NCBI GenBank assembly: GCA_914767715.1
Contig: OU612074.1
Coordinates: 15,052,062-15,116,061, forward strand
Length of the DNA: 64,000 nucleotides
Origin: Membranipora membranacea
Lineage: Eukaryota; Bryozoa; Gymnolaemata; Cheilostomatida; Membraniporidae
Direction: 5' to 3'
In this document: piece after piece, positions 4,199 to 55,019 of the stretch
Layout of the letters: each line of letters begins with the position of its first letter
Position numbering within the stretch: the first letter of the stretch is position 1
Program-made: the position numbers and the translations under genes
The notes under the pieces: model-generated
Databases searched by the model: none
The model's input: the letters and a program-made list of their open reading frames with translations, nothing else
Told to the model about the DNA's origin: nothing

Positions 4199-5131
4199 AA
4201 ATCCTCTCTTCATGAATGATATTATGCTAACCCCTATCTATATCATCACCAGGTGCATTAAGGCAAGATGAAAACTGGTGATAAGTTTCTAGTGAGTATC
4301 CAGAGTTCTGTTGTCTTGATTTACTTCCCCACCTGTGTGTGGAAGTGCCATAACTGTCATGACTTGAATGAAATTAAATCCGTAATTGATCATAAATAAT
4401 CTGGCCGGAAATATTAAGTTTGATAGATTATGATACAGGTTAGTCCATGGTCTAAAACATTTTCGTTGGATTTCGGTTAGGTGAAAAAAGTAGCAATTCA
4501 ATTTGTCACAGGTTAACAGATAGATTGGTATTTCATAGGAATATGGAGTTATGTATTGTAATATTGTGCTTACTGTCATACTACTTTGCTGTCAGACTCG
4601 ATTGAAATTACTCACTTTGGTATAACTAAATATCCATCTAGTGTATTTCCGTAATAAGTCCTACCATTTAAAACATAAAAATATAAAAACAGAGGAATTC
4701 ATATAATGTTTTGATGGAGCAATTATCTAATAGGGTATGAATACTAGTCGTTTTTGGCACGTCATGGGTTTTTAGTCAGATAAAAGTAGCGCTGTTCCGA
4801 AGCTAGTGAAAGGAGGAAAAGAGCCTTGCGCAACCACATTTTCAAAACATGGTATCGACATGTTAATCACAGAGAAAATATTAAAATGCGTTGGGGGATC
4901 TGCATACAAACATGGCTTCTAGCTAGTTGAGCAAAATGTTTCATGGATAGGGATTGCTCAAAAAGTTAACTTCTAAGATCGATCATAACTATGGCATGAG
5001 ATCAAAAAATTATCAACAGGAAGAAGAAACTGGATGAGCAACAAATAGCATAATAAGAACATCTCTGAACAATACAGGTCAAGGTCATATTATAGAATCC
5101 TAAGGCTAGGTCAAATCTCAAGTATAATATG

Positions 5132-5399
5132 CTAGCTGGCCCTATCTCGGGGGTACTTTCTACTAACAGTTGTAAATGAGCCAGCCGGACTATTCCGGCT
5201 GCGTGCCTTGCCCTGAGCGTAAGCCGCATGGACCATACACAGTCGTACTGGAGAGCTTGATGCTTCTCCTCCATTGTTTGATATTGCTGGGTAGCCTTGT
5301 AACGCTATCTCCGGATTGGATCCCACTGCTGCCACCACCTGTGTTGTGTACATTGCTGTGTGCTGATTGGGCACTGTTCGTAAAGTGGCCACGTCGGAT
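5132..5399 (-). CDS. TTLL10: exon 18: last exon, stop at 5132
   Basis: Acceptor CATTTTGTAG, entry phase 2. Default frame: SDVATLRTVPNQHTAMYTTQ and onward to SRKYPRDRAS, then TAG at 5134-5132. In the frame from the other exon-17 acceptor it reads IRRGHFTNSAQSAHSNVHNT and stops at 5192-5190. No AATAAA is seen just downstream, so the 3' end of the transcript is not located. Confidence 0.72.
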
Positions 5400-8300
5400 C
5401 TACAAAATGGTAAACAATTATGGAAATTTTGTTTAATTCGCATAACAATCCACCATACTTTCCACAATGTCTGCTGGAACCAGAGGTGCATCAATGTACC
5501 ATAGGACTTCTTTCATAGCTTTACTGTGGGAACTAGTTGAATGGCTTCGAGGAAAACCTTTGTAATTTTGCATATCTAAGTTTCTAAGGTTGAATCTCCT
5601 GGAGAAGAGGAAATATCAAAAAGAACAGTAGAAGTGGATTTATCACACATAAGAGAATGTCAACCAATCAAAATCAGTCGCAAAGAGATCACAAACTTAT
5701 TACACCCTAAAGTATTGAGCACAGCACTTATGTAACATATACAATCCAAATAAAGGTTACATACATAGGTCTTAGATGGTACACCTCCTACATCAAAACA
5801 TTAATGAACAAAACGGAACTGCTTAAAGTACTATACCACACACAAAACCTAGTCATAAGTAACCACTTTTGTACCGTATGTGCCTGTCATGTTATATATA
5901 CAAAAGAGCATTATGGGAAATTAATTGGAGATTTTACACTATAAAAACAAATTGATTGGGTCAAACGCAACATCAACCATCGCTGGTTTTTCAGTGCCTT
6001 CCATTGATTATAAGTGCAGTTTTCTGTCTTCCAACGAAATTAGGTTATGAACGGTAGCTTTTAAACCTGCATGTAGCCCAATGGCATGCCATAAGGCAGT
6101 GATGTCTTGGGTTCATGACAAGATCCCATGTACCTGTAATGATGAAATAACACTTAGTGGTTGTAACCTATGAGGTTTGCACAACACGACCACTGTTAAC
6201 ATATGTGCTGACAGCAGCATCAGCTGATCGTCAGAGGATTGATCAGCATTTGCAACCTCAGAGTGCAGAGCGGAATCCTGAGGTCGCATTACTAAAATAT
6301 AAGCCTCATTGTGGATATAAAAACTCATTGAGGATCCTCTGAGGTTGCAACCTCCGTCAGTATGGTTAGACCATCACATTATGGTTGAGAAGCTTACCTG
6401 ATTGTATATAAGGGAGGCAGCAGAGGGGTTTTTGGTCGATAATCTTTTAGCTCGCGCAAGATCTGCTCGGTGGTTTTGAAGTCGGCTGACGGTGGCGGGA
6501 TTCCGAGCGTGCTCGCGACTGTGAGGATCTGCTGCGGAGGTGCTCCTGATGCTGTTGCTGTCGTCTGAGTTGATCCTCTGGTAAAAGTAAAAAGTGATAT
6601 TTTTAGGTCAGCTAAGGGTCAGCAAATGGTCAACAAGGGGTCAGCAAAAAGGTCGACAAAGGGTCAAAAATGGGTCACCTGTCGGTCAAAGTTTATGTGT
6701 TATCCTTGAGTAGTATTTGAATTTCTAGAACATACCAACAACACACATAGGGCAAATGTATTGTCATGTAGACTTAGAATTAACCTATTTAGCCTAAGAA
6801 CCAGGTGGAGAATACTTTGTTATACTGAGCTTTAAAGATTAGTGATTGTGTCAGAATCATACTCAAAAAAATTTAAAGAAAAGTATTTTTTATTAAAAGG
6901 AGAAATATTGAAGATCAGAGCATGAAACATTTGAGGTTGGGATGCCTTTTGCCAGCAAGGCATTAGCAACTAAAATAATATGAGCGACAGAGCGAAAAAT
7001 TTACCACAGTAATGTTAAGAAGTGAACAAGTAATTCAAGGTTTGAAATAGGTTGAGAGTCAAAGCTGAATCATAGGGTAGTGGTAGCACTTCAACCAGCC
7101 CCTATCATACCAGATGTGACACTCAAGGCAAACACCATAGACATATATAATATCGTATTTGAAAGACTTTTTGCGGTGCAATAATGTTATATATGTCAAT
7201 GGTGAGAACTTATAAGGTTGTAAACAATAGGAGCAGCAAAGTAAAGTGAAGCAGCCAGTGATGTAGCACTATAATACCTCAACTAAGTGGATTCTGCTGT
7301 AACAAAGGATATTCACAAGAATATCAGATAGAGTCTACAGAATGTTTTCCATCTTTTGTGAAAAGAGGCACAAATATGTTTAGCTAACCAAACTGGACAC
7401 ACATTGGCTAACTATTGCTCTGATAACTAGCGGCTAAATCTAGTCTCTAAAATCTTGAAGGAATTATTAATTTGGACAGAGTATATATAGCTGTAGACAA
7501 AAAACCTCAATGTAGCAGTGAACATGGCCGCAATACTAGGGAGATTTAACAAGTTGGTCAATAAGGGGAGGTAATGATATCCTAGCATTAATTTGAACAT
7601 ACATTTTGTAACTCGGTACATGCAAGTTAAACAAGATTGCACATAAGCACATCAAACCGGTGTAGTCATACATAAATATCTGATGATCGGACGACAACAA
7701 AAATCAAAACACCACTACAACAATGTTTAGCCCTGTGAGCACACTTTGCAGGCACTAAAATTGATTGCTGAGGAGCATGAGTTAATTTGTCTACAGCATA
7801 CATACTCGGTCACACAAAGGAATTCTTACTTTTAGTCGTTATCAATCGGAGCAGTCTCAAAGATGCCGACCTGACCAAACACGAAAACACAGAAACTTTG
7901 CTGATCATTATCTATAAGTGTCATAGCAGACTTATAGCAATTCAACTTATTCCATTTAGCAAGATGTTCTGGCAATACACACACATGTACAGTGTGAAAA
8001 TCAGCTGGTATAATTTTCAAAAACTACCTAATTTCTAGCATCAGAAAGATTGTCTGGTCTGATGGACCAGAAAATTTTGAGCAGCGGCACAAAATTTCCA
8101 CAAGCAACATATCCAAAGGACAAAGGTTTTTGGAAGTAGGTACTGCATGTTCGATGAATGACCCAAACTGACACCACAACAAGCAAAAACAATACATTTA
8201 ATTAGTAGTAGTTTTGGTGCCAGAACGCCAATGAACAAAAAAAATTACCAATCTGACTATTGACTCAAGATAAACAATCCATTTCATCGGTACTGAGATG

Positions 8301-11300
8301 GGTAGGGGGGTATGCCACCTACATCTAATGGATAAAAGTGCAAAGGTCAAGATCATTCTCATGATGCAATGTGTGATCAAAAGGTGAGGGTGTGTCAAGA
8401 ACTATCCCAAAATGCAATTCTTGGGAATTCCCAGATCAAACAAACAGATTTCCGGAAGAGTTGCTCTTTGGTAGCTTATTTAATCGTCGCATTCTGGGAG
8501 TTATTCTGACATATCTTTATAATAATCTCAGCCTCATTGTCAGTGATGCATCATGGGAATAATCTCAACCATGCTTCATCATGTTAAATACATTTTAGCT
8601 TGTCTAATATTTAGTACAATTATGCTAAAGGTTTTTTTTCCAGAGATTAATTTGCATTACCTCTCAGCAACAAATCCATCACATCTTAGTCTAGTTAAAA
8701 ATACAATCACATATGATGAACTAATTTATGATTGAGTTTGGTAACATCTACACATTACAATAGCCAAGTGGTCTGTTATTGCAATAACGATAAATAGACA
8801 AGATCAAATTGCCAGATTGCCTACAATTTGAGTTCCTCCCCCTCGAAATGCTGGTTGCTTACCAGTAGAAAGAGAGTGACTATTAATGCAGGCAAAATGG
8901 AGTAAACCTTTTCTACAGACAGACCACATGGCTTTTTAGTTGAGCAGAGGAAATATACTGAATTTATTCTTAATAATCTAATGCTTAAAAATACGGGTTT
9001 CAAAAGTAGTTTAAGCGCATAATCTTTAACTGGGTCGTGTGTAGTGGCATTCCATGTACATTCAGCAATGGAAGATACCACTTCAAGCAACTCAGGTGAA
9101 GTTTAAGGACTTAAACACGCTTTACACAGTGGTTAGTTTGGTAGGGACACTGTGAACCAAGGAAAATGTGTTAACAATGAGGATTCAGGGATTCTAAACT
9201 AAAACCAAAAATTAATACGAGCTAAATAGTTGGGATACCTGATAGGTGGTACTGATCTATAAATTGCCAAGCAATTTCGTCAAGGTCAGGATCAAGGTGA
9301 AGGTCAAGTTAGCAGAGCAACTACCCTACAGGAGTAAATATTAGCTACAGTTTAGTCTCCCTAGTTTTAGGGTGAATGAATGTTAGCTGGTACCAATTTT
9401 CACGAGCTAAGGCGAGTGCTTACAAGGTAGCTTATATGTTGGCTAGGCAATAATTTTAACTACTCCAGCAAACACTATACTCCTTTAGGGTACTTATCAT
9501 CAAATCAGATCAAACTTTGCACAACAAACATTCTACAATAGCCCACGTGATTCCCTTGTGCTGGGTGGAGTCAGCTGAGGTTGGAAGTCAGGTACTCACT
9601 AACAATAATTACATGAAGCTATGGCTAGACAGGCGGACAATTTCACCAATACTCAACGGTCGGCTGATAGCTAGCATGCCAGGTGCAGGTCATGTTCGAC
9701 CAAATTACCTACATTTGGAGTTGCTTCCCATAAGCCGCTGGTGGATTGCCCTGTTAACTATAAGCAACCAAAAGTGCGGGGTACCAAACTCGCTTTATGC
9801 CAGGTACAAACCTAAGCGTTATATTATAGTTAGGCAGATGCTTGTAAGCCTACAACTGTTGAGGGCAATAATTCTACCTGTCTAGCCACACCTTAAGTGT
9901 TAGTTAGTCTGTTCTATAGCTGCATGATCTGATAAGTTTCCTTACCTAGCCCTAGCTGTTATCTGCTGAGGTCCTACAGGTGCTGCATTTGGTATCAGCT
10001 TGTTATAAAGGGCCTGACTTGGTTCGCCCTCCACCGCAAAATCATCTATGGATTGTTGGTTCTCAGTCTCTTGATTATTGCTTGGTGACATTATACCATC
10101 GGTTCTGTCAGCAAGATGATCGAGTGAGTCGGGAGCTTGTGAAGAAGGGTCCAGCTCGTCCCCCGATGCTATAGCTGGTCCAGTGTTTAGTCTATGGTAG
10201 CGTGAGCGACGACGCTGAGCAATATTACCTAGATTTGCTATGTTACTTTTAATATAGTTTGTTCCTACGATAGGTTTGGATTCTGGCTTAAGTGGAGCGG
10301 GTTGTTGCAACGAGCGGTTGATGGATGGGACCGGGTTGCTGTTTGCAGCACCACGTAAAGTTGGGCTGCTTTGGTAGAGAGCACCGCGTATACCAGGGTT
10401 GCCACCTGGAGCACCACGTGTATCCTGTTCTGCCGAGTGACTTTGTTTAGAGGATTTGACAGGCGACCTGCTGATGTAACCCCATCCCTGCTCCTGAAAC
10501 AGGAAAGACAATTAAGTTTAAATAGTGTGTTGCACCATTATTTGTGAAGGGTAGCAGTTGAATTCTGGAATAGTTTTAAATGACAAAGTGGTACATGTTC
10601 ATAACTGTGTCAACAATTTGTAAAATCTTCACAAGATAATTTTTGATTCTTGCCTGTTAAAAATATTCAGCAACCATATTTACTGTAAGATTTAGGAGCA
10701 GTCAATGGAAATTTATTGAGATAAAGTAAACTTAATATACGCAACATATGAAAATGTGAGGAAAGAGCGATTAAAGCATAATCATTACCATAAACTACAC
10801 ACCACGCCAAGGCATCTAAAAAATTGGAGTTGTGAATTAAATCATGAGAAAAATCTTAGTTACGCACTATTCCAGGATATTTGTAGTTATCCCACCACGT
10901 TATTTTGGTAGACAACTCCCAGAGGAAATTAAAATCACTCAAAGAGAAATAAATTACATGCATGTTAATATCGACTGGATATTTTAAATATTATTTACCA
11001 GAGGTGGGAGTATATCAATCTATAATCAGGTAAAGTTCACTGCATATCATAGCACAACAATAATAGTTGTTAGCGGGATAGGTCTGTTGTAGCCTACACA
11101 TTCACTTGATAGCAGAGGTTTGATATTCTTCCCTATCCCAGAAACAGTTGCATTGGCACATAGGAAAAGCTTTGCAGTTAATTTCAAGTACCAACTGCAG
11201 TTTTTATTTTGCAATATGGTGGTTGATATCTGATTGATGGTATTTTCCTGCTTTTTCGAAGGTATTAGAACATGTTTGAGTTTAAACAAATGATTTATTT

Positions 11301-14300
11301 ACAATAAATTGCATAACAATACCAATCAGTGGGCCAGTCCCTAACTAGCGAGAGCAAAATGTCAACACCACTCTCTTGTGAAAGCTGCACGGTGCAAAAC
11401 AAATATGTAAGTAGTTGGCGGAACCTACCTTGCTAGGAGAGGCACTTCTTCTAGTTGCAGCCTGAGATCTGACAGGTGATTGACTGGCTTTAGCAGCGGG
11501 TGGGCCACCTGCCCCTCCTCCTGTACTGTGAGAAGCATTAGTGGTATTTTCTTTGTCTGTGTTGTTTGACGTAGTTGAAGATTGTCCGCTAGACTTTGGA
11601 CAGCCATTATATAGAACCTGGAAAGTCTTCAGGCTCTGAAGAGGTAGGATGGGGAGATTTTTCTTGGTCCTCTCAAAACACTCCAAGGCACAATCTAAAA
11701 GACAAGAAAATACAATAAGATTTTTTTTAACATTTTTTATTGACAACAATCTCCATCATTAAAATGATGTTCTTTCAAAAGCAAAATATTGAAAAAAGTG
11801 CCAAATACAGAATTTTATTGCAGAAGATTTAAAAAACTGAATCAGGGTACAGACAGTTATGCCAATCCCATATCATCTATTGAACAGATGCGAAGACTGC
11901 CAGATCTTCATGTCTTATATGCAAACTTTTCGTTGATGGCAAAGGATGTAGAAGGGAAATTTGAGATATTTTCTATATACATTGGCTGGTCGTTCTTTAC
12001 AAGAGGGGTAACTGCAAATTCAGAGATAAATCAATGTTGCTCAGATACACTTACCGACAGTTTCCTCAAGTATTGGAGGTAAGGCTTCCTTTAGAACATC
12101 ACAGTTTGTATGCATAGCTGGATTCACATTGATCTCTATTAACCAAACTTTCATATTCTCATCTATCATGAAGTCTAATCCGTAGATATCAAAGAGACCT
12201 AGCCTGCTATTCAGTTTGTGTTTAACAGCGTTGAAGCAGTATTTCATTATTGACTTGATTTGTTTCTAAAAAATGAAGGCATATGTCAACCCTGATAAAG
12301 GAGCAAATTTTTATCAGTTGTAAAAAGTGGCAGACAACTAGTAAGGGACAAGGCAAGAAGGGGTAGGGTTGGCTCAGCATATTAGCGTTGAAGGGTTCGG
12401 CTGCAGTTTCGTGGAAGACCAGGCTGGGCTTTCTTCGTGCCCCGGCTGTGCTTTCACCTGCCTGCAGCCTTGGGGCATGATGCAGGTATATAGGCACCCA
12501 ACATTTCATCAACATGATTCTGACACTCATGGAATGAATTTTAATGAAGTTTATTGGTGCTTACATCTTACATCATATCATATCTGACATCCAGTGTATA
12601 AGTGGAGGCAAAGAAATCTCAATGTTTTGCATGTGCTTGTATGAATGGATTTCAGGAAAATTAATCAAAATTTTAGATTGATACGAACCTCTAGATAGTT
12701 GAGTACCCAATCTTGCTCTATGTTTTTCTCTGCTGAGATGGTATCATTTACATACTGATTGAATCTCTCCATGGACCACACAGTGTCCTCCTTCACTTCT
12801 TTGTAGTTCTCATTCTTCTTCTGCACAAACTAGAGGATAGCACAGAAAAAAGAGTGAAATACAACGAATAAAAAATCTCCAAACAGTAGTGATCTCAACT
12901 AGACTTTTCACCTTTCTTCCTTTGTCGTTAGAGAAAAAAATTAACAAGGAAGGGCAATGACCACCTAGTAATACACATCGGGTAGTAATGACACTCTAAC
13001 TACTCAAAAGATCCGGCCTTTACTCCTGGCACTCTTTCTTGATGTTTGTATTCAAAAGTCTTCAAACTATAATGTTAGAGTTGACTGTTTCTTTACAGAG
13101 TGGGGATAACTGACGGAAATCATACCTGATTAGTTAGATGAACAGAGAGATCAAAGTTATCCAGATCATATTCCTCACAAGTCACCCTGACATAGCCTCG
13201 GTGATAGAACACTAGAAACGGAATAGTACTGGGGATCACCATATACGCCCGTATATCAAACTTCTTTTTCTCCACCAGTAAGGGGCGTTCTATGTAGCGC
13301 TGCACTATCAAAGCCATAAGAGGCTTAGTCCTGCGGGCTTGTTTTCTCTGTTCTCTGTCGGCTAACATCTTCTCTATCTGTTCTACAGATCTGACAAGGA
13401 ATATTCCTTTCCCTTGGTTTAATCCGGTTGGCTTGCAAATCCAGATCTCACCATCTAAAATAATAAAGTGAGCCATATTGTGCTGATCAAATATGGTATG
13501 GCGACTGTAACCGGCTTCCTGTTTTGAATGAACACCCATTAGATTTGGTATTAATCTAGTGAATTTTGCAGATAATGGAGCATAAGATGTATTGGGTTAA
13601 CCAAGCCCCAAACAGATCAGAGTCAACTAACTTGTTAATCATTATCATACCTTTGTAGATTTCTAGAAACTGCTCTCTATCCCTATTCTGGTCGATTCTG
13701 TATGTCTCTGGTACAAAGTCTGACATTCTCATTCTACAGCGATTGCCTTGAAGTGCCTCCAGGACTCGACTGTATTCACTCAGGCTATTAAATAACCCGA
13801 GTTTGTTGGTTAGCAGGCTGCAGTTTGGTATGCGATTCACCAACTGCTCGCCATCTCTGAAATCACAGATAAACATTCTGGTTTTAAAAAACTCAAACGG
13901 AATTCCGTCAAGACAATTGCTACGTTATCTCCAATTACAAATTCTACATGAGTAATCTTATCTTTGATTTAGATAATAAAATAAAGACACGCCATATTGG
14001 TACATTATTCACCCTAGCAAACTTCTTGCATTAAATTATTAATTTGACAGAATAACCTGGCGATCCACAGGGTTTTGCACACCCCAACAGTGGGTTAAGC
14101 ACCAATATTCTGGAAGGAAAAACTCTCACTACATTGAAGAGTTGATCATAATATATATCAATAATCATGGATTGAAAGCAGTGATATGAACAATTGCTAC
14201 ATCTACTTATAAAGTAAACCTATTCTGTAGCTTGGGGGAAACAACTGCTGGAGATGAAAGTGCTCACATGTTATTTGGAATCCAGACCAGGGCAAGATAT

Positions 14301-17300
14301 GTGTTTAGTCACATCAAAGAACAGTGATGTATGTTTAAACGAGCGGACTGTTGATCTTGCCCCTGAGATCACTCGACCTTTTTTGCATTGAATTATTGAT
14401 TGATTGATTTGTATTCTATCACTAACTGTAAAAGTTGCGAGAAAAAGGTTGCTGGTACACGTACTCTGCTAAAAAATAATGAAGTTGCCTTGCATGCAAT
14501 AAAAGTATTATTAAAAAGTAGTTAAAAAATTGTATTTTTAATATAAATGCACATGTGTCTCAAACAGCAGTCTTTGCCCCAGGCAGTACGGTATTTAGGG
14601 TGTCTAAGCCGACCTGAGGGGCATCGTTCGAGGTAGTTCTGGATAAAGTGTTGGTCATCAGTGAATATCTGCTTTACACGATTTTTTAAATACTTTACTA
14701 CAAGCACAGACCAAATGAGCTCAACAACTTCTTCTGTCGTTTTAAAAAACCAGACATTAGCCAACCAACTGTAGATTCAACAAAAGTGACAGCACCTGTT
14801 TTTGAAATTAACGACGACACAGTCTTAAAGCAACTGAAATCTCTATATCCTCGCAAAGGGCCAGGGCTGGATGGAGTCATCCCTAAAGTCCTGAAACTTT
14901 GTGCCTACCAACTGGCACCAGTCATTACCAAACTATTCACATTCTCTATTGAAAACCATACGACACCAACACTCTGGAAAACAGCTATTATTAAACCTAT
15001 ACCAAAAGTTAAAAAACCTACTCAGCAGAAAGATTACCGACCGATAGCTCGTACAAGCTGCCTATGCAAGATGCTGGAGAGACTAATAAAACAATATGTA
15101 ACACAACACACACCAATGGACCCATACCAATTTGCATACAGTACAAATCGCTCAACTCAAGACGCAGTTATGTGCTTCACAACAACCATAACCAACTTCA
15201 TTGACAAAGCCCAGACAAACTATGCTCCGCTGTCTGTTCCTAGATTTTTCATCAGCCTTCAATACAATTTGAGTAGAATATTTAATCCCATCACTGCGAC
15301 ACCTTGACTCAAACATATCACAATGGATTATTAGCTTTCTCAGTAATAGCAGACAACAAACAATATAAATTAATAATAACTACCTCTCAGATATACTCAT
15401 TACCAACACTGGCACCCCACAAGGATCTGTACTAAGTCCTCTATTGTTTTCATTGTATACTGATGGAATTAGATCTAGATGTCAGAACTTTCATGTTTTA
15501 AAATATCTGGATGATACTTGTTTGATTGGACTCATAGGCAATTCCTCTGATTTAGATTGTTATTTTTCTGAAGTAAATAGAATATCTAATCAATGCTCAG
15601 ATCTGGAGCTCCTTCTAAACGCAGGCAAAACTAAAGAAATGTTATTTTCAACTACACATGAAAGACATGTCAGCCCTAGCCTCTTACTTAATAGATCAGT
15701 TATTTCTTTCTGTGAGACTACTAAATATCTTGGTGTTGAGATTGACCAGAAGCTTAGATTTGAAGTCCACATCCAAAATGTTGTTCGTAAGGCAAATCAA
15801 AGAATGTATATAATTAAAAGCTTTCTGTATTTGAGTACCAAGCCACTAGCATGCATGCTTTTTAAAAGTTTTATTGTTTCACTTTATATTGTATTGTCTA
15901 CCAGTCCTCTATCCTGCTATTTATCAACGAGATAAGAAGGACATGCGCAAAATATTTAAAGATGCTTCCTCGCTCTCGGATTACAACTTAATTAGTACAT
16001 TCTCGGTAAGCATTGTCAGACAAAGCATATGGGTCATATAGCACTACCCTCAAAGATTGCTGACAATCACTAGGGGATCTGGAATTTTGACAAAGGGCAA
16101 AGTGTTAAGTATCTCATTACCTGAAAGCACCAAAGTTGACTTGACTGTTCACCTCAACCCATTTCAGTTTCCAGTTGAAGTTTTGTTTATCTGCTATTTT
16201 CTTCCAGCCTAGCGATGCCAAATAGTTATCAACTCTACAAGATAAAATCAGGTTGTAGACCAGAGCGCGATCTACCAAAACTGCTGGTATGGTCAATAGT
16301 CTTGTGTCAAGAAGGCTTGACACTGTCATCTTTTAGAAGAGTTCTCTGGCGCAAAACCATATCTATAAACAGCAATACAAATCCACCAACTTGCCTGGTG
16401 ATAACCTTTAACCTATCATTTTCATGAATTTGCTGTACATCAAGGGGGTGGCGATGATCCGTTACAAAGTTTAAAGACGTCACAGATGAGAACTCAGACT
16501 AACCTAGTTGGAGCCTCCCCTACTTTGGATTCATAGTCTATAAAGCCTGGTTCCTAGTGCAAATATCAATAAATTCCCGAGTATTTAGCACCAATACTGT
16601 ACTAATAGTGACCTATTGTGCTGCTAAAATTTAACCCCAGATCAGTGAATTGGATTAAATTTCGTCTGAATGCGATAAAAGGGACTTAATTCACGCCTTA
16701 TCAACTGGACACACATTAGAATGAATCGAGCAGATTTGAATCAAAAGATTGACCGCTGAGGCCAATGTCAGACGGCAAATCAGTTGATGTGTGCAGTGCA
16801 ATGTTTCTCAACTCATTATATAGACTGTGATTTAGTTCTAGTTTAGGTCCTTAGGCTAACAGCGCTAAAAAAGACCTTCTTGTTAATAAGGTCGTAGAAC
16901 AAAATTCATAAACTGAACGTCAAATAGTAACATATTTTGGTCAGAAGTTTTCAAATAGATGGTCGAAGGAAAATGGATGAAAGTGAAACAAACCAAAGCC
17001 CTAAGTACATGTATTACAGAATCTTGATCTGACTTAATTATTGACCAAATATGTTCTTGAAACTAAAGTAAGTATGACCTCACGTTTTTTCAAAGTTCAG
17101 TAAGTTTCGAATTTTTCATCAAGCCAGACACATGGACCTGTTCTCCCTCCCACAACAATATTTTCCTGGGCTACCATTTTGATTGAAGCATTCATCTTGT
17201 ATATACCGATGTCATCAAAATTCACAAATTTAGTTACCTCTGTGGTCGTGGAGGGATATTTAAAAACCTGTGAAACAAGGCGTATCACCCGACCTTTGCA

Positions 17301-20300
17301 ATATCACTGCGCTACCAGAGAGAACAGACTTAATGTAAGAAGAGGGGGAGCAACTACCAATGCAAGGCCAAATGAGATCCAACTTGATCTAAAGCCAATG
17401 TCATCACAACTTACATCGGCCCTCCATTTCCGCCGCATATCTGATATGAAGCCATACTGCTCTGTGTGGGGATGCTTAGTGCCCGAAGTCTCGCATTGTG
17501 CTGGGCTTTACGACTTCTCTTACCCTCGGTACCAGATGACTTGGAACGGACGGGGGTTACGGCAGCCGCACCTGTAACTAAAGTGAAAAACAAATTGCTG
17601 CTATAATAGAATAAATATGGTAATCTGCAGCAGCAGAGAAAACTATACAAGTCTAGCGGGCATTTGCAGCAGGCATGATTTTCAGTCCTTTGTTGCGTCT
17701 ACATGTATTATAATTTGTTGAAGGTACTCTAAGGATGTCCCTGAAACGTCATATTCCAATGTTCCCAGGGATTGCATAACCCTTCGATCCTAGTTGGCTG
17801 TATCCAGTTTGGTTTGTAGACAATTCGAATTTGTAATGCAATTTGTTTGCTCCAACCTTGCTTGAAACATTGCCAAAAACTGATGAACCCTCGACCATGC
17901 TGCTGTGAACAACAGTTGGTCCGTGCCTTATCTCTTGGAACTTGTGCAAGTATAATCAACTGGCAAGTTTCAAGATATGTTTGGTTCAAACTGAACTGAC
18001 ATCATTAAAAATAGCATGATGCTGTTGGGTGGGTTGTTGCAGTGGTTTAAGATGAAAGGGATTTAGACTCGTCATATTTGTATGACCAACTGATTTTCAT
18101 CGATGATATGTGTTGAGATTCAGACTAAGAGCATTTTACGAAAGGATATCATGCGAAGTTGGACTTTCTTATCTAATGTCACATTTCAAAGATGAATTTT
18201 GATTGATCTAGTTCTAATTATTGATATATAACAGGTGTGACACCGACACATATCAGATGTTATTATTGATTAAAAAAAGATTATCAGTTAATAACATGGT
18301 GCTATGCATATAGGTTAATTGTAACAGCCGCTTAGTGCATGAGGCTTTGCCATTCCTGTACAAAAGCTTATATCCTATTTGTGCTGTCCTACCTTTCTCC
18401 TTTGAGAGTGGTTCGGGTACTATGTGAGCAAGTAAATACACGACAGCACACAAATTGGTGCCACAAAAGTGATGAATGGAGCTGTGTGAAGATTGACAAG
18501 GAACCTTTTTATCATAGACACTCATTGTGAAGACAAGGGGTCACAATTTTGGGCGATAGGCAACTGCAATGTACCACTAGCTAAACCCAATCGTTATTTA
18601 TGTATGCCCAAATGCAATGACTGTCGATACCAATAATCAAATTTAACTGTGCCAGTGTAGTACAGGGATGTTTAACCACATCAAAGGTAAACAGCACCAC
18701 ACAAGTCTTGGGGTGAGAGATTTGTCAAGTAAAATTTGCCAAAGTCATTCTCGGATCGTTTCCGGTCATAATAAGGAAGCCTATAAGAGGTCCTGTTTCC
18801 AAATCAAAAGCTTGATGGACCTCTCCACTGTTTGCGTGAATGCTCTTGGACAGAATTTGCCTTGTATAGTTGCGAGGATTTGGATAAATATGAATTGCTC
18901 GCTCTAGCAAAATCGATAGCGTTGGCAGCCTTTAGTCTAGCTACAGTTTCATGTGCGATGAACATCCCATACCAAAACAAATAAACGATGCCCTTACCCT
19001 CAGAAAACTGTTTACTCTGCAACAAGCATCCTCAATGTTATAAAACTACTGATACAAGTGGCCACAGGATCTAAGTTGTGACAGCACGAGACATCAGACC
19101 AACCATGCATCAAGCGCCGTATCTGAGTCATAAACGAGCGCTTGATAAATATGCGTACTAAATATCAAAATGAAAGACCATATCCGAGCATTTCAGCCAC
19201 ATACATGTATCATGCAGAATAGGGAGACAGAGATGCGGTACTGCTGCCTGCAATGTCATGCAATGTACCGGTCTAACTGTTAATTATTGACAGCTAGACC
19301 AGTACATTGTATGAGAACAAACATAATCACTAAACGCTAGTAACTTTGACTGCTTAGTAAGCTACTCTACACACCACACCTTACCTACCTTCTTCTGTCT
19401 TTGGTGAATCACAAAGTAAAGCAGATTCTCCAGGAAAAGTGAGTTTATGTTGATCAAACGTAGGCATACTATGTGAGGACTCTAATACCCCTTCATCTTA
19501 GTATCAAACTTTGTAGCTATCAACACTCACATGCCTGCACACATTACATTTACATACCACAGTGAGCATATGATCATATCCCTATTGTATGTGGGTTGCT
19601 AAGCAACTATTGACTTAGGTTCATTTTATAAGTAGGTGGTATTATATCTTCAAAAGGTTGCATGAGCGTGCTTCAATGGGCCTATTGACCTTAGTCTAAG
19701 AAACAAAAACACTGTTACTTTTGTCTTAACCAGGTTCACTCAAGGTTGAATGAACGAAATCACAGTATTTGCTCTAGATGTGATTGCAGTTTTTATGCCC
19801 TGACATTTCGTAGTTCAATATCAAATAATATGCGTGTAAAGATATGGCCAGTAGATTGAAAACAAATTCTAGCAGCAATAAACTGCCGAGTAAGAATTCA
19901 CAAGAAATAGGAGTGCCTTAATTTTGTCTGTGATATTAAATTGCAAAATTCATAATTATAATAATTGCTAGATACACCACTAGTGTTGCATCTAGCAATG
20001 ACATTAACCCTAAATCCTAAATTCTAGTCATTGCATCAAGGATGAGGCTGAAAATCTAAGCAGCCAGAGAATGGAGCCACAGCATATTGGATATTGAGCT
20101 ACAGTGGCCTTAGTCTGAGTTCCCAAGACTAATTCTCTCCATCGGCGCCCCACCCCCTCTGCAGCGACCTGATTATATGCAGTCTCACAAGCAGCGCACT
20201 GATCATGTGATATTTGATAGCATGTATATCTCTGATCTATAGAGACTGAATGAATTCACTTAGCATGAGTACCATCACAGGGTATTTGGTGTGATGACCC

Positions 20301-23300
20301 AAGTTAAGTTTTACTAATTTACTAAGTTGTCTCTAACGATCAGAGAAACATACGATTATCTCGATGCCAGCGTGCACCAGAAAAGCACATTTCTACTCAA
20401 TCATCAATGGTAAGGCGAACAGCTGTGTTGAAGACTCAGATCAAGAACTAATTTAAAAAGATACAAAACTATATTACTGTTATATTAGGAGCAATAAAAG
20501 TTATTTGAACAAGTTCAACTAAAAAGAAGCACAGAATTTTTATTAATTAAGAAGGAACAAAGCCATAATAAGTTGGAACAAAAAACAATTTGATAGCGAT
20601 AGAACACCATGCTGGTTGTGGCTAGGCAGGTTTAATCTTAACATGATTATGGATTACTTGACCAAGGTTTCACTCATTTTAAATAAATTAGCAAGTGACA
20701 TAAGAAATTAAGGATGAGTTACCTCGCCCTGAATCATGGGTGGGCAACTGCTACTTAAAATCATTATAATGATCAAAATAATAAAACCTGGACACATCAG
20801 CTGTTGGTCCCTAATCAAGGCACTAAAAATTCATCATCCACATTCAGACAAACAAATTCATAAAATAAATAATCGAACATTTGAAGCAGTAATTTATGAA
20901 CAAAGAAGCTATAGCAGCAATGAGTATTATGAGCAAAAAAGGAAAATAGTAATAAAAATAAATAGCATTGATAGCACTTGAGATTTTTGAAGCACAGAGT
21001 GGACGGAGCTTGAATTTACCTAAAGGGGACGGGCGAAAAATTTCCTAAAGGGAGGGGCAAAAATTACCTAAGGGGAGGGGCAAAAATTACCTATACTAGT
21101 GATAAAAAGAATAACCAAATAAACACCATTGGTAGATAATCAGCGGTATGGACTAATGAATGTAAATACAGCTGTTGGGACATAGCTAGCAGTCCTCCAA
21201 CTAACTCAAACCCCTGAATCTATGAAAAATCGGGGCAGTAGAAATCACCAAAGCTAAGTAAAAATATCCTAGCAGAATAAATAATTTAGAATTTAGGGTA
21301 CAATTTCTAGCTAAATAGGTTGCAATATGTGATTTTTAATTGTAGTTTTGCAACAGTTGGAGGGAGGCCGTACCGAATCTCTCTACACATTACCCTTGAT
21401 GAGTTCAAGCTATTCTACCTCAAAGTCACTCATTCCTGAAAATACCGCCTCACACAGAGATGATAACCTTAATGAATTTCAAAATCTAAACATTTCAAAT
21501 TCAGACAGTACCATCACCTGAAGAGGATGTTTTGGTGGAAGATCTAGCCCTAGATCTCGTTTGGACGGCTGATGATTTCTGTGACTGTGACCATTTCACA
21601 TCGGCTGACGAGCTGCTTGTAACCTTAAAAGCTGATTTTATGGTGACTTGTTTGATCGCAGGCTTTCCAGCTTGCTCCTGATGTTTGGGTCTACTGCTGG
21701 GTTCACCCTGGATACTGTCTGAAGACAAAAAAAGGATGTTGTCGGTGAGTGGATTGAATTCTTCGTTGATTAAATTATCACAGTGTGAATCTCAACCTAC
21801 CTGACTCACTGATTTTAACTCAAGAAACTACATTCATAGGTAAACATTTCTTTATGCAGCCACAAACACTTCAGCTGTCTGTGGCATTTACATGATATAA
21901 TTTCCCTATGGGCAGACAACTCCCAACATATAAAATTTTACACACAGCCCAATCTTTTCAAAGCTGGCAGGGATATCAAAGGTCATTAAAAAATGTGAGA
22001 AAAATTGATGGAGCAATTCAGCAAACAAGAAACTTCATGAATATGAATAAAATACAGCTCATTGGAATTGAAACTCCCCCCCCCCCTACATACCTGTAGG
22101 ATCAGCTTGATCATTCAGCTCCTCCGGCGAGTCCACTTTCTCAGTTTCTTCACTTGAGGAGCTAGACTCAGATTCGGTGTGCTCATAGGAAACCAGACTG
22201 AGTCTGTTACCATTAGCGAATATCGAGTCCATAACAGATGAAGCGTTACGGCTGGCTATATCGATAGTCACTGGTATGTCCATTTGGGTAGTATTCAGAG
22301 CTGCAAGGTCAAGGTTAGCTGGTTCAGAGCTTTGAGGCTGTGCTTGTTTCAAATGTGCAGCTTGCTCAGCTAGGATAGAGCTATTTTCATGCATGATGTC
22401 GCCAATGGAGATTGTCTTCACGTCATCGCATAGTGAGGTGTTGGTCCCGTCCGAGGTCTCTCTAGAGTCGGTGTTGGGACTCAGTTTGGGGCCGCTGTTG
22501 ACAGAAGTGTTCTGTGAACTACCTGGTAGATCTTCTGGATAGTGGTAAACTTTCTGCTTCACAGTTGTGTTGGGTAGGAGTTCTGAATCGGTGTTGGGTT
22601 TCGCTGTATTACCTTCAGCTATGTTCTGGGCAAAATATACTGGCCCTGACATTAGTGTGACCTTGGGGCTGTTTTGCTGATTGAGTGAGTGATATGAGGT
22701 TGAAGGAATTTCATCTTCATGTACAATTGGTGGTGTATGGTTACCGCTTTTGAGTAATATATCAGTATGAGAAATGTCTAGTTTGTTTGGTGATGAACGC
22801 ACAGAGATTTCAACTTTAGCAGTTTGCAAGATCACCTCTTGAGTTAGTATTGGAGGGTCCGACAGTGCTGGGTGAAGATCTGAGGCTAAACTTTGAGGCA
22901 TTGACTGTTTCACTACAGGTGTTGACTGTATTATGCCATCTTCTCCCTCCGAGTCCGAAGCATTGACGTCTTCCATGTCAACATTTGCCTGATCTTGGAG
23001 ACTGTCTGAGTAAAATATAGATCTCTCCGCGGGGTCGTACTCACCGGGAAGTCTCCAGGGGTGTACATCACAATGGCTGTAATGGAAAAAAGTAAAAACT
23101 TGCAAATCAATCAAATCAATCAAAATATATAGAATGCAAAGCACATTGCTCAGTTCAACAATTTTGTGATCTCAAAGTTATGAGCTAAATAATGTATAAA
23201 ATCTAAGTTTTTCACAACAACACAACGGGTTCTCTCAGGCTGTTAATTTCCCAAAATCCACCCAATCATGGACAGCGCAACGGAAAAACTTAAAATTTCA

Positions 23301-33741: not shown

Positions 33742-33783
<42 letters not shown>

Positions 33784-54700: not shown

Positions 54701-55019
54701 TTTGCAGGAAGATTTCCTAAGTTTAATATGCCATTAATAACACTTTTGCATATTTTTCAGAAATTTGTAAAGATTTGCTTAAATCATCAGTATTATCAGT
54801 TTGTGCCACACTCAGCTTTGAATCACCCCCTTGTATCTAGTCAAATCTTACCTGCCGGCGTTTCTTGTACTGTATAAATGATTCCTGCAGCGATACAGAC
54901 TTGGAAGAGCTAGAGTCAGCAACATCTGCGTCAGCAGAGCTTCGCCGACTGTGATTGGAGCTGCTGCCAGCAACAACATCACTTCCTGTCTGACTATTCT
55001 TCTTTCCTGGAGACTCCAT
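5132..55019 (-). CDS. TTLL10: NlpC/P60 domain fused to TTLL10-type polyglycylase (17 joined exons, about 1441 aa)
   Basis: Joined from exons 55019-54852, 33107-32957, 27779-27573, 26229-26135, 25558-25464, 23076-22094, 21718-21518, 17577-17415, 16234-16121, 13856-13651, 13454-13126, 12829-12689, 12265-12055, 11694-11429, 10493-9946, 6577-6398 and 5399-5132. Every junction keeps phase and the total, 4326 nt, divides by three. Residues about 87-215 are an NlpC/P60 fold with Cys118 in DCCGLV and His185 in HVEIWLG. Residues about 675-1040 are the TTL ATP-grasp domain, closest by eye to TTLL10, with KPTGLNQGKG near 802, HLTNQ at 900 and the metal-binding E995/N997 in WLIEINVNP. TTLL10-type enzymes add glycine to proteins, tubulin included; human TTLL10 is regarded as inactive, but the ATP-grasp residues visible here are kept. 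The NlpC domain's substrate is unknown. Two neighbouring genes read as one is the main alternative; the unbroken phase across exons 5-7-8-9 argues against it. The C-terminal frame is uncertain (see exon 17). Confidence 0.85.
5400..6397. other. intron between exons 17 and 18
   Basis: GTAAGC donor at 6397 to TTTTGTAG acceptor at 5400. No other coding content is recognised. Confidence 0.7.
6398..6577 (-). CDS. TTLL10: exon 17: C-terminal tail, with tandem acceptors
   Basis: The acceptor region reads TTTTACCAGAG|G. Using CCAG (start 6577) gives GSTQTTATASGAPPQQILTV and onward to YRPKTPLLPPLYTI. Using the next AG (start 6575) shifts the frame by two and gives INSDDSNSIRSTSAADPHSR and onward to SAASLIYNQ. 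Both frames stay open through this exon and well into exon 18. I take the CAG acceptor as default because it is normally stronger. Donor ATCAG|GTAAGC. Confidence 0.75.
6578..9945. other. intron between exons 16 and 17
   Basis: About 3.4 kb. Contains the DR5 half-site array close to the exon 17 acceptor. The 122-codon open frame at 9517-9885 on the plus strand shows no domain. Confidence 0.7.
6605..6688. repeat. DR5-type array of nuclear-receptor half-sites (11-bp period)
   Basis: Eight RGGTCA-like hexamers (AGGTCA, GGGTCA, TGGTCA, GGGTCA, AGGTCG, GGGTCA, GGGTCA, CGGTCA) are separated by 5 bp, once by 6. Read on the minus strand it gives repeated CTGAC/TTGAC, like branch points, just upstream of the exon 17 acceptor. 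Confidence 0.85.
9946..10493 (-). CDS. TTLL10: exon 16: disordered C-terminal tail
   Basis: Acceptor CCTGTTTCAG, donor CTAG|GTAAGG, exit phase 2. Encodes 182 residues beginning EQGWGYISRSPVKSSKQSHS, rich in Ser, Pro, Asn and Gln, with RRRSRYHRL in the middle. No known domain. The link to exon 15 rests on phase 0/0 and the continuing low-complexity style. Confidence 0.85.
10494..12054. other. introns around exon 15
   Basis: Intron 10494-11428 (about 0.9 kb) and intron 11695-12054 (360 bp). Nothing beyond splice sites was seen. Confidence 0.7.
11429..11694 (-). CDS. TTLL10: exon 15: end of TTLL10 domain and start of tail
   Basis: Acceptor TGTCTTTTAG, donor CAAG|GTAGGT. Begins DCALECFERTKKNLPILPLQ, then SLKTFQVLYNGC, matching the last helix and strand of TTLL10 (ETF.KS ... 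FVLLHNGE). After this the sequence turns Ser/Thr/Ala-rich with no domain. Confidence 0.93.
12055..12265 (-). CDS. TTLL10: exon 14: TTL metal-binding core
   Basis: Acceptor TTCATTTTTTAG, donor GTCG|GTAAGT. Encodes MKYCFNAVKHKLNSRLGLFD, then IYGLDFMIDENMKVWLIEIN and VNPAMHTNCDVLKEALP. D982, E995 and N997 are the expected Mg/ATP ligands of the ATP-grasp fold and all are kept, so the enzyme may be active. Confidence 0.97.
12266..12688. other. intron between exons 13 and 14
   Basis: About 420 bp with a GTTCGT donor and a T-run acceptor. No other feature is seen. Confidence 0.7.
12689..12829 (-). CDS. TTLL10: exon 13: TTLL10 helical insert
   Basis: Acceptor CTATCCTCTAG; the donor GAG|GTTCGT is weak, but phase and homology fix it. 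Encodes FVQKKNENYKEVKEDTVWSM, then ERFNQYVND and EQDWVLNYLE. It matches the FMQKK..L....HTVWSMEHLNRY segment of TTLL10 and joins HLTNQ of exon 12 without a gap. Confidence 0.95.
13126..13454 (-). CDS. TTLL10: exon 12: TTL ATP-grasp core
   Basis: Acceptor TTATTATTTTAG, donor CAG|GTATGA. Encodes DGEIWICKPTGLNQGKGIFL (ATP-binding Lys802 and the glycine loop), LIVQRYIERPLLVEKKKFDI, RAYMVIPSTIPFLVFYHRGY and LSVHLTNQ. These are the defining central motifs of tubulin-tyrosine-ligase-like proteins. Confidence 0.97.
13651..13856 (-). CDS. TTLL10: exon 11: TTLL10 N-terminal subdomain
   Basis: Acceptor TGTGATTTCAG, donor AAAG|GTATGA. Encodes RDGEQLVNRIPNCSLLTNKL, then GLFNSLSEYSRVLEAL and MSDFVPETYRID. 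The order (REGEQL..N..LTTK.GL, then FFPETYRLD) is that of TTLL10. Confidence 0.94.
14698..16045 (+). pseudogene. decayed non-LTR retrotransposon reverse transcriptase (jockey/CR1/Rex-like)
   Basis: It lies antisense in the intron between exons 11 and 10 of the TTLL10 gene. Frame 1 (14698-15220) gives ELNNFFCRFKKP, then KGPGLDGVIPKVLKLCAYQL, KTAIIKPIPK, KDYRPIARTS and YQFAYSTNRSTQDA. A frameshift follows; the other frame holds FLDFSSAFNTI (motif A) and then stops. From about 15390, NTGTPQGSVLSPLLFSLYTD (motif B), FHVLKYLDDTCLIG (YxDD motif C) and TTKYLGVEID follow. A second shift near 15900 leads to PVLYPAIYQRDKKDMRKIFK. No endonuclease domain or tail is seen, so it is a 5'-truncated, inactive copy. 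The exact clade is not determined. Confidence 0.9.
16121..16234 (-). CDS. TTLL10: exon 10: TTLL10 N-terminal subdomain
   Basis: Acceptor TTATCTTGTAG, donor TTCAG|GTAATG, phase 2 on both sides. Encodes IVDNYLASLGWKKIADKQNF, then WKLKWVEVNSQVNFGAF. It aligns by eye with the S-Y-C-K-S-K-G-W-Q-R-I ... L-K-W-C-E-V segment of TTLL10. Confidence 0.93.
16235..21517. other. introns flanking exon 9
   Basis: Intron 16235-17414 (1.2 kb) and intron 17578-21517 (3.9 kb). The latter holds a 20-bp inverted repeat at 19261-19309 and no recognisable gene. Confidence 0.65.
17415..17577 (-). CDS. TTLL10: exon 9: start of TTLL10 ligase region
   Basis: Acceptor TTTTTCACTTTAG, donor CCGAT|GTAAGT. It encodes a basic lead (RSKSSGTEGKRSRKAQHNAR) and then SYQICGGNGGP. 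This matches the opening of the TTLL10 domain, where vertebrate proteins have a Gly-Gly-x-Asn-Gly turn before the first helix. Confidence 0.88.
21518..21718 (-). CDS. TTLL10: exon 8: basic Ser/Lys-rich linker
   Basis: Acceptor TTGTCTTCAG, donor TTCAG|GTGATG, entry and exit phase 1. About 67 residues (SIQGEPSSRPKHQEQAGKP, then Lys/Ser-rich to RSRARSSTKTSSS). No domain is seen. A few bases of open frame continue past the chosen donor, so the exact 3' border could shift; this one keeps the frame into exon 9. Confidence 0.75.
22094..23076 (-). CDS. TTLL10: exon 7: long acidic, Ser/Thr-rich linker (327 aa)
   Basis: Acceptor CCATTACAG, donor ACAG|GTATGT, entry phase 2, exit phase 1. It begins S-HCDVHPWRLPGEYDPAERS, the alternative continuation of the NlpC domain. 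The rest is low-complexity and acidic (NASDSEGEDG early, SSSSSEETEKVDSPEE late), with no recognised domain, so it is probably disordered. It links the NlpC domain to the ligase. A run of 11 G residues on the minus strand lies 8 nt inside the next intron and may help define the donor. Confidence 0.82.
23077..23970. other. spacer between alternative exons 6A and 7
   Basis: About 0.9 kb. For the short isoform this is 3' flank; for the long isoform it is intron. No domain-bearing frame is seen. Confidence 0.65.
23971..24913 (-). CDS. alternative last exon 6A (313 aa, Ser/Pro-rich, hydrophobic end)
   Basis: Acceptor CCATTTGTAG, entry phase 2, open to TAA at 23973-23971. The start, SFCPFHRWKTDRYG, resembles the start of exon 7 (SHCDVHPWRLPGEY), as if one arose from the other by duplication. 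Next come a Lys/Arg-rich region with repeated KS/RK pairs (about 60 residues), an aromatic NFINDYAGSS patch, an acidic stretch DDDSEDEEDP, a Ser/Pro region and a hydrophobic 18-residue run before NKLNLL-stop. No known domain is recognised. Confidence 0.75.
23971..55019 (-). CDS. short isoform: NlpC/P60 protein with hydrophobic C-terminus (about 552 aa)
   Basis: Exons 1-5 of the fusion gene (55019-54852, 33107-32957, 27779-27573, 26229-26135, 25558-25464) joined to the alternative last exon 24913-23971. The total is 1659 nt, 553 codons including TAA. The product keeps the whole NlpC/P60 domain but has no ligase. After the domain comes a Lys/Arg-rich stretch, an acidic stretch (SDDDSEDEEDP), a Ser/Pro-rich region, and a final hydrophobic run, GLTLAVGYGVVLSSLYVL, seven residues from the stop. 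That layout resembles a tail anchor, which would place the enzyme domain on the cytosolic face of a membrane; this is inference. An unseen donor inside the last exon would overturn the model; I saw no GTRAG donor in the phase needed to join exon 7. Confidence 0.65.
23986..23991 (-). terminator. possible polyadenylation signal of the short isoform
   Basis: The minus strand reads AATAAA inside the last codons of exon 6A, 12 nt before its stop codon. Cleavage 15-30 nt downstream would leave almost no 3' untranslated region, which is unusual but workable. No other AATAAA or ATTAAA was seen in the next 250 bp. Confidence 0.3.
25464..25558 (-). CDS. TTLL10: exon 5: end of NlpC/P60 domain
   Basis: Acceptor ATATCACACAG, donor AGAG|GTTAGC, exit phase 2. 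Encodes VHDSYDFEAKSYHSPTYIFK and then SIDTWLMGLCQ. It continues the domain directly from exon 4 (GKVQ|VHDSYDF). Its phase-2 exit fits both 24913 and 23076 acceptors, so it is the branch point between the two isoforms. Confidence 0.88.
25975..26130. repeat. degenerate repeat of GCCTCAGT units next to exon 4
   Basis: GCCTCAG recurs at about 25975, 26036 and 26113, each followed by related AACCTCACAA..CTA sequence (about 60-77 bp apart). A similar piece occurs near 50050-50110. Confidence 0.55.
26135..26229 (-). CDS. TTLL10: exon 4: NlpC/P60 catalytic histidine exon
   Basis: Acceptor TTGTAG, donor CAG|GTAAGT. Encodes KKQKHDMVHVEIWLGEGDKT, followed by IGARWQRGKVQ. HVEIWLGEG corresponds to the family's HVGIYLGNG motif, giving His185 as the catalytic base. 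The usual third polar residue about 12 positions later is not obvious; R200, Q202 or H209 are candidates. Confidence 0.92.
27214..28020. repeat. direct repeats of about 200 bp flanking exon 3
   Basis: Copy A 27214-27411 and copy B 27815-28020 share CTGAAGT..TGCACTTTA, AACTC.CAAAA, ATATGAGT.TCCCACAATG and GGCCAATGAT..CAT in the same order and orientation. The exon with the catalytic Cys lies between them. Confidence 0.75.
27573..27779 (-). CDS. TTLL10: exon 3: NlpC/P60 catalytic cysteine exon
   Basis: Acceptor AATATTGTAG, donor GTGAGA, entry and exit phase 1. It encodes NAPLFLDCCGLVRKIM, where DCCGLV corresponds to the family's DCSGLV motif and supplies the nucleophile Cys118. A conserved-style Gln in GPWNQAY and the strand KPGDLVFIAATYNN (family PGDLVFF) follow. 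The exon lies between two direct repeats of about 200 bp. Confidence 0.92.
31953..31966. promoter_or_regulatory. ATTTGGCGCCAAAT palindrome (E2F-like)
   Basis: A perfect 14-bp palindrome matching the E2F consensus TTTGGCGCCAAA, within an intron of the TTLL10 gene. Function unknown. Confidence 0.35.
32607..32933 (-). mobile_element. foldback (long-palindrome) element, copy 1
   Basis: The ends are AGTGATTGTGAAGGAATCAG and its reverse complement, and inverted similarity continues through most of the 327 bp (for example AAGTCTAAT, ACTGCTATA, TTAATTAGCA against the other arm). It has no coding capacity. Related to the copy at 61291-61561. It begins 23 nt downstream of the exon 2 splice donor. Confidence 0.85.
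32957..33107 (-). CDS. TTLL10: exon 2: basic helix and start of NlpC/P60 domain
   Basis: Acceptor ATTTCAG precedes GAACAAATG; donor GTAGGT follows. Fifty codons plus one base (exit phase 1). The first half (EQMRQAKKLKETKLKTRADG) is a charged, probably helical segment. The second half contains AKRYFGTPYAKKY, which matches the opening A..YLGTPY segment of NlpC/P60 domains. A foldback repeat begins 23 nt beyond the exon's 3' end. Confidence 0.9.
33745..33779. repeat. GT microsatellite
   Basis: About 17 GT dinucleotides, then GC. In the long first coding intron of the TTLL10 gene. Confidence 0.97.
34269..34363. mobile_element. 95-bp inverted-repeat insertion with target duplication
   Basis: Arms CTAGCCTTGTCAC (34269-34281) and GTGACAAGGCTAG (34351-34363) are perfect inverted repeats. 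They are flanked on both sides by GTTATTG (34262-34268 and 34364-34370), extendable to 8 bp depending on where the end is placed. The interior is mostly a run of 16 G and GT-rich DNA. Confidence 0.65.
34285..34300. repeat. G16 homopolymer
   Basis: Sixteen G followed by ATGGGGGAGGCGGC; could form a G-quadruplex and is prone to length error in assembly. Confidence 0.95.
35199..35436. mobile_element. small element with CAGGxCCGTAGTTT ends, copy 1
   Basis: It begins CAGGACCGTAGTTTAGAAAA and ends AAAACTACGGGCCTG, an imperfect terminal inverted repeat. The inner sequence GGCAGGGGAGACAAAA resembles the GTAGGGGAGGCAAAA of the copy at 62873-63075. No coding frame. A clear target duplication was not found. 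Confidence 0.6.
37611..37856. repeat. tandem duplication, about 120-bp unit
   Basis: Two units beginning CATAGCATTTCGAAGAAATT (37611 and 37731), both ending ATACCGGCCATGATT, with a third start at 37850. No coding content is seen. Confidence 0.85.
38530..39428. mobile_element. hAT-like non-autonomous element (899 bp)
   Basis: The left end TAGAGGTGGAACGGGT and the reverse complement of the right end TAGCGGTGGAACGGGT match at 15 of 16 bases. They are flanked by ATATTAAA (38522-38529) and ATATCAAA (39429-39436), an 8-bp target duplication with one change, the length typical of hAT transposons. No transposase frame is present inside. A tRNA-like segment lies within it. It sits in the 21.7 kb first coding intron of the TTLL10 gene. 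Confidence 0.7.
38661..38722 (-). mobile_element. tRNA-like sequence (SINE head or pseudo-tRNA)
   Basis: The minus strand has an A-box-like TGGCATAGTGGGTAAGAG (38719-38702) and a perfect B-box GGTTCGAGTCT (38675-38665), about 27 bases between them. A clean cloverleaf acceptor stem is not apparent, so it is more likely a SINE head or relic than a working tRNA gene. Confidence 0.5.
50681..50884. repeat. tandem duplication, about 105-bp unit
   Basis: Units at 50681 and 50786 both begin ACAATGGC, share TTTTAGTATCTTTGACT and end CATACACAGTCAGTGACCGT. Non-coding. Confidence 0.85.
53504..53515. promoter_or_regulatory. ATTGGCGCCAAT palindrome (E2F/CCAAT-like)
   Basis: A perfect 12-bp palindrome in a short CpG-rich stretch (53455-53540), unlike the AT-rich surroundings. 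It holds an E2F-type core and overlapping CCAAT/ATTGG boxes. A promoter role is inference. Confidence 0.4.

Follow-up and report, generated by a model that had tools for sequence, protein, structure and literature searches.

Exon structure of the gene

The window, i.e. the whole 64,000-nucleotide stretch of Membranipora membranacea DNA that was analysed, carries on its minus strand a gene model in which an NlpC/P60-type domain precedes a TTL-type ligase domain. The rebuilt chain of 17 exons begins with the ATG at 55019, stays in phase down to its stop at 5433 and encodes 1402 amino acids with the sole stop codon at its end. Open frames were assembled into it by phase and by splice-site scores, with exon 5 joined to exon 7 and exon 6 skipped (the numbering of exons 1 to 18 includes exon 6). 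The phase-consistent chain with the 5-to-7 join put forward in the first-pass annotation was thus reproduced; its start at 55019 was retained, while its lower limit was moved from 5132 to the stop codon at 5435-5433. All seven motifs quoted there were located by sequence check, every one of them on the minus strand, to which all exon and motif coordinates below refer.

Exon 1 (54852-55019), with an upstream in-frame stop above 55043 and a donor (CAG/gtaaga) ranking in the top 0.1%, encodes a low-complexity N-terminus. The first intron spans 21.7 kb and may contain extra exons. Exon 2 (32957-33107; motif and splice scores) encodes a basic stretch and, with YFGTPY at 32982-32999, the first part of the NlpC domain; just past the exon lies an inverted repeat (32604-32739 and 32801-32936) with 136-base arms that are 80% complementary and 61 bases apart. 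Exon 3 (27573-27779; motifs and Pfam) carries the predicted catalytic Cys C118 within DCCGLV (27733-27750), followed by PGDLVF (27601-27618), and is flanked by an 88-base direct repeat (27319-27406 and 27923-28010, 84% alike). Exon 4 (26135-26229; motif and alignment) contains the predicted catalytic His H185 within HVEIWLG (26183-26203) and the sequence TIGARW. Exon 5 (25464-25558) contributes SIDTWLMGLCQ, late in the NlpC module, and ends at the donor GAG/gttagc with 2 bases over, in phase with either exon 6 or exon 7.

Exon 7 (22094-23076) lies in an open frame of 361 codons; the exon starts with HCDVHPW and then forms an acidic linker leading to the TTL domain. Its reading frame contains no stops, whereas the two other frames hold 18 and 30. 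At 23045, 32 bases into this exon, stands a donor-like GT (score 5.9) to which the model assigns no role. The linker, low-complexity and about 430 residues long between the two domains, continues through exon 8 (21518-21718; splice scores and phase) into exon 9 (17415-17571), which was recovered by motif and phase in the gap between exons 8 and 10, holds the start of the TTL-type region (YQICGGNGGP) and ends at the donor GAT/gtaagt. Splice scores and phase define exons 10 (16121-16234; GWKKI...LKWVEV) and 11 (13651-13856; DGEQLVNRIPNCSLLTNKLGL). The intron between them holds, on the plus strand at 14690-15932, the reverse transcriptase (RVT_1) of an inserted element, matched in two separate open frames at 29.0 and 44.3 bits (cut-off 29.6). 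Exon 12 (13126-13454) encodes the ATP-grasp core, with KPTGLNQGKG (13405-13434), KFDIRAY and HLTNQ (13126-13140), and is supported by motifs, by Pfam TTL and by the whole-genome TTL match. The TTL domain continues in exon 13 (12689-12820) and in exon 14 (12055-12265; motif and splice scores), which encodes LDFMID and WLIEINVNP (12119-12145). The glutamate of the latter motif, numbered E995 in the first-pass annotation, is E990 in the rebuilt chain, while the number of C118 is unchanged. Splice scores place the remaining exons: exon 15 (11429-11694), a C-terminal extension past the TTL domain; exon 16 (9946-10493), a low-complexity C-terminal region; exon 17 (6398-6577); and exon 18 (5433-5598), the last coding exon.

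The splice-site score was of our own making, and ranks are given among all AG or GT sites of the minus strand. The chain has 32 splice sites, and by this score 28 fall within the top 2.4%, the four weaker ones being the acceptors of exons 3 (17.8%) and 4 (23.6%) and the donors of exons 13 (10.1%) and 5 (4.7%); as the chain was picked with the scores in view, these ranks speak for consistency and do not form an independent test. The open frames of exon 7 (361 codons) and exon 6 (331 codons) exceed the maximum of 208 codons reached in 60 first-order Markov simulations of the window. In 14 of the 18 exons the GC content is at least 0.40, and five intron stretches sampled for comparison gave 0.36-0.39. 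In our judgement it is likely that the NlpC/P60-type domain and the TTL-type ligase are fused in the protein of a single gene.

When the window was scanned for tRNAs and Rfam families, nothing came up, and the 20 kb flanking it on either side held no tblastn match to the fusion at E ≤ 0.1. Past the 3' end of the gene lies a tandem repeat (4073-4201; 42-base unit, 3.1 copies). By eye, frames beyond the high end of the window (L109, 2896-3249; L110, 32-319) resemble pieces of a phosphoinositide 3-kinase, and those beyond its low end (L107, 2910-3536; L108, 9336-9998) are alike to one another and receptor-like, with several membrane segments.

The TTL-type ligase domain

The Pfam TTL family (PF03133) matches residues 727-1021 of the full chain at 9.3e-52 (176.5 bits, cut-off 20.1), and the ATP-grasp motifs within the domain are intact, as would fit a ligase. 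A PDB search matched 23 distinct sequences, the best being a TTL (9.1e-25), with TTLL6, TTLL7 and TTLL11 among the others; the matched entry 5vlq we take to be TTLL3. In the first-pass annotation the ligase was filed under TTLL10; the motifs flanking the core presumably resemble those of vertebrate TTLL10, and the domain is that of a TTL-family ATP-grasp ligase, probably of this (polyglycylase) type. A search with PF03133 across the whole genome (339 Mb, 18 contigs) yielded 28 matches to single exons. Eight TTL loci were taken from these, one of them the window itself, and five of the other seven align with the present domain at E ≤ 1e-3, over parts only and at 28-43% identity.

The NlpC/P60-type domain

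The match of the NlpC part to NLPC_P60 (PF00877; residues 115-211 of the chain) scored 25.2 bits (1.6e-5) with the 211-residue domain as query, 22.9 bits with 523 residues and 21.0 bits with the full 1402, around a cut-off of 23, so that the family call varies with query length. For the Pfam search of the joined protein proposed in the first-pass annotation this means a strong match to TTL and one below the cut-off to NLPC_P60. The domain also matched PHROG 329 (minor tail protein) at 2.1e-8 over 143 residues. NCBIfam profiles gave no match, nor did phmmer against the PDB detect any NlpC entry up to E = 5.

In a tblastn alignment with a phage NlpC domain, 40 of 140 positions are identical, covering the Cys region, PGDLVF, HVEIWLG and the following stretch; the same match scores just E 0.02 against the whole phage collection. 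Aligned to phage and bacterial domains, C118 (DCxGL-type) and H185 (HVxI-type) are kept in the canonical order, whereas the third catalytic His of the phage domain (FIHAS) aligns with the Gly of TIGAR, so the third residue of the Cys-His-His set is not kept. The earlier interpretation of the locus stands as to NlpC/P60-like and TTL-family ligase domains in one phase-consistent gene model, with the qualification that the canonical third NlpC catalytic residue is absent. Its further elements, glycine as the substrate, reversal of one and the same bond and a place in cilia, are conjectural. In the part of PMC10318531 available to us, NLPC_P60 is listed as Cys-His-His and the third residue varies across the papain-like superfamily. 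The retained Cys and His would fit a hydrolase and, given that the third residue is variable across the superfamily, hydrolase activity of the domain appears likely, albeit not assured.

Probable alternative exons after exon 5

Exon 6 (23971-24913, minus strand) was passed over in the earlier chain; the 5-to-7 join itself is retained in the present model, and what had been left unmentioned is that exon 6 may be a last exon in its own right, yielding an NlpC-only isoform. Its phase-1 acceptor is acceptable, and the exon fits after exon 5, stays open for 313 codons past the acceptor at a GC content of 0.46, and encodes a start reading FCPFHRW, a basic low-complexity region and a terminal hydrophobic segment (mean hydropathy 1.62) before the stop codon at 23973-23971. 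An AATAAA begins at 23991, 18 bases ahead of this stop codon. Donor-like sites over 24900-23941 are weak, the best GT scoring 1.3 (at 24723) and the best GC 2.7 (at 24271). A product running from exon 5 into exon 6 would be an NlpC-only protein of 552 residues, and we judge it somewhat better than an even bet that exon 6 is indeed used as an alternative last exon.

Exons 6 and 7 have in common the phase of their acceptors (that of exon 7 scores 6.0) and a C-x2-H-x-W start, so that the LCQ of exon 5 is followed by S-FCPFHRW through the former and by S-HCDVHPW through the latter, with three of the seven residues identical. When the first seven residues of exon 6 were compared with those following the 7807 other AG sites of both strands, read in matching phase, the start of exon 7 was the top match (score 23, next best 18); over all 127,900 positions a score of 23 is reached by seven, exons 6 and 7 counted. 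The DNA pattern for C-x2-H-x-W is itself over-represented in the window (7 found, 2.2 expected; equalled in 1 of 100 shuffles). Our reading of this sequence likeness is that both exons may complete the NlpC module, as alternatives after exon 5. On this reading the NlpC module would be completed within exon 7, on the TTL side, and a single gene encoding a fusion becomes more likely.

A junction leading from exon 6 into exon 7 was set aside because of the weakness of the donor-like sites in exon 6; in the phase needed, the best GC scores 1.4 (at 24275, fitting the phase of the exon 7 acceptor at 23076) and the best GT -2.5. The GT at 24723 (1.3) is in phase with an inner exon 7 acceptor at 23005 (3.9), and for comparison the accepted donor of exon 13 scores 0.4. 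A splice from 24723 to 23005 would also yield a fusion, in which case exon 6 need not be a last exon.

Searches for relatives

With the NlpC part as query, a scan of IMG/VR gave no match and one of GTDB contigs brought up nine stretches by pattern, none of which proved a relative; with the TTL part, two IMG/VR stretches were found by pattern and neither is a relative. The DNA pattern for HVEIWLG occurs in at least 80 GTDB loci and in 16 IMG/VR loci. A tblastn search of the NlpC domain against 105 loci gave three matches at E ≤ 1: one locus previously taken as an NlpC relative (L097) and two (L096 and L063) in which only a short stretch at the HVEIWLG motif itself aligns. At the same limit the domain matched seven phage records (best 0.02; six unannotated and one a hypothetical protein) and 35 plasmid records (best 0.005); among the 20 plasmid matches listed, the majority carry an NlpC/P60 or C40 annotation. 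Within the genome itself PF00877 gave no match at E ≤ 10, a count that is uninformative on NlpC paralogues, as the intron-split domain of the window was missed too.

A full-text search of one open-licence literature collection returned no paper describing an NlpC-TTL fusion; in the same search no paper on an invertebrate TTLL10 polyglycylase was found. Such an absence concerns one collection and is not proof that the fusion is novel.

Comparison with known systems

The TTL domain with its ATP-grasp motifs (PF03133) is common to the present protein and the TTLL10 polyglycylase, the former differing in an additional N-terminal NlpC/P60-type domain and the long linker. We know of no vertebrate TTLL10 with either of these. 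The Xenopus TTLL10 construct of the in vitro assays described in the accessible part of PMC12340829 comprises residues 105-570 only. With the NlpC/P60 (C40) thiol peptidases (PF00877) the protein shares DCCGLV, PGDLVF and HVEIWLG, in that order, and a weak alignment to the bacterial and phage domains; it departs from them in the absence of the third catalytic residue, an extra C-terminal part ending in C-x2-H-x-W and the attached eukaryotic ligase.

Glutathionylspermidine synthetase/amidase joins a CHAP amidase to a GSP_synth ligase and both makes and breaks one bond. A papain-like amidase and an ATP-grasp ligase are thereby combined in one chain, as is predicted for the present protein. Neither CHAP nor GSP_synth is among the Pfam matches of the present protein at a limit of E = 1, and the likeness would be one of design, not of shown ancestry. 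Another parallel comes from Giardia, in which, according to the portion of PMC3962474 at hand, 14-3-3 is polyglycylated by a TTLL, with specific deglycylases acting as well. A TTLL glycylase is there opposed by deglycylases on one target, as may be the case here; the Giardia activities are described as those of separate enzymes, in contrast to the one chain proposed here (PMC3962474, same portion).

Proposed function and alternative explanations

The best overall explanation of these observations, to which we assign a probability of roughly 0.45, is that one gene gives rise to two proteins, the fusion and an NlpC-only form, with roles in writing and trimming a protein modification. The choice of exon after exon 5 would decide between them: splicing to exon 7 is predicted to produce the 1402-residue fusion, in which an NlpC Cys-His domain and a TTL ligase are connected by the linker, and splicing to exon 6 a protein in which the NlpC domain is followed only by a basic tail and a hydrophobic segment, possibly a membrane anchor. 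Side chains of tubulin or of another protein would receive amino acids, most likely glycines, from the ligase, and side-chain amide bonds of this kind would be attacked by the NlpC domain, working as a thiol hydrolase or transferase. Both writing and trimming could then be done by the long form, whereas the short form would be confined to trimming; putative in all this are the activities, the substrate and the place of action in the cell.

A more specific and tentative proposal, which we hold to be unlikely as it stands, is that the NlpC domain works as a deglycylase, either on the gamma-glutamyl-glycine bond at the branch point or by shortening polyglycine chains, with the choice of last exon setting the balance between writing and erasing. 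Glycylation begins when glycine is attached through an isopeptide bond to a glutamate gamma-carboxyl, and TTLL10, which extends from such initial glycines, binds microtubules less as polyglycylation rises (PMC12340829, in the sections available). The linkages attacked by NlpC/P60 enzymes are N-acetylmuramate-L-alanine or D-gamma-glutamyl-diaminopimelate, according to the part of PMC6403190 at hand. As both chemistries meet at a gamma-glutamyl amide, we infer that the writer-plus-eraser reading is plausible. Bacterial NlpC substrates contain D-glutamate and tubulin L-glutamate, a mismatch that constitutes an objection to it.

The evidence on exons 6 and 7 bears on two other views of the gene itself. 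The locus might consist of two adjacent genes, one for NlpC that finishes with exon 6, which does resemble a last exon with its stop codon and AATAAA close by, and a TTL gene transcribed from its own promoter near exon 7, where methionine 273 of the chain could start a TTL-only protein; we regard this as improbable, considering that the frame of exon 7 is open upstream of Met 273 up to an acceptor (6.0) sharing the phase of exon 6, and that the C-x2-H-x-W start repeated in exon 7 would be superfluous in a TTL gene standing by itself. It is quite improbable that fusions are the only products, exon 6 being either an unused relic or a donor of its part 24913-24723, spliced to 23005 in exon 7. The likeness of the two exons would suit an old exon duplication, one copy of which may decay, and the sites at 24723 and 23005 do match in phase, but a decaying exon is expected to gather stops, whereas exon 6 keeps 313 open codons and a GC content of 0.46, and its part beyond 24723 would otherwise have to be intron.

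Other explanations accept the fusion and question the chemistry. The NlpC domain might have ceased to be a hydrolase and instead bind glutamylated or glycylated tails or regulate the ligase, as the Gly at the third catalytic position and a Pfam score close to the cut-off could indicate; retention of the catalytic Cys and His with their surrounding motifs argues against such a loss, as does the variability of the third residue among papain-like enzymes (PMC10318531, in the part seen), and we find it doubtful. Very unlikely, in our view, is that the domain is active elsewhere, on peptidoglycan for defence or on some other amide, and that the fusion merely shares localisation. Peptidoglycan is what characterised NlpC/P60 enzymes cleave (PMC6403190, in the portion available), including those of a eukaryote, Trichomonas (PMC6299479, likewise in the portion available). 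On the other hand, the protein shows no N-terminal signal-like segment, the four top 19-residue hydrophobic windows of the long form lying at 857-876 and 1375-1397, and a TTL-family ligase as partner would point to the cytoplasm.

Significance

The preferred reading, of one gene with a fusion and an NlpC-only product, touches on glycylation, a mark for which TTLL3, 8 and 10 are known writers on tubulin. The deglycylases were still called unidentified in 2024, as worded in the part of PMC11244163 available. If the reading is true, a thiol amide hydrolase encoded in a polyglycylase gene would be a concrete deglycylase candidate, and the writer and eraser of one protein mark would be present in a single chain, from which splicing could release the eraser. 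Even without catalysis, NlpC-TTL would represent a domain pairing for which the open-licence search found no paper. The NlpC-only form, if made, may be a candidate enzyme for the removal of the glycine mark.
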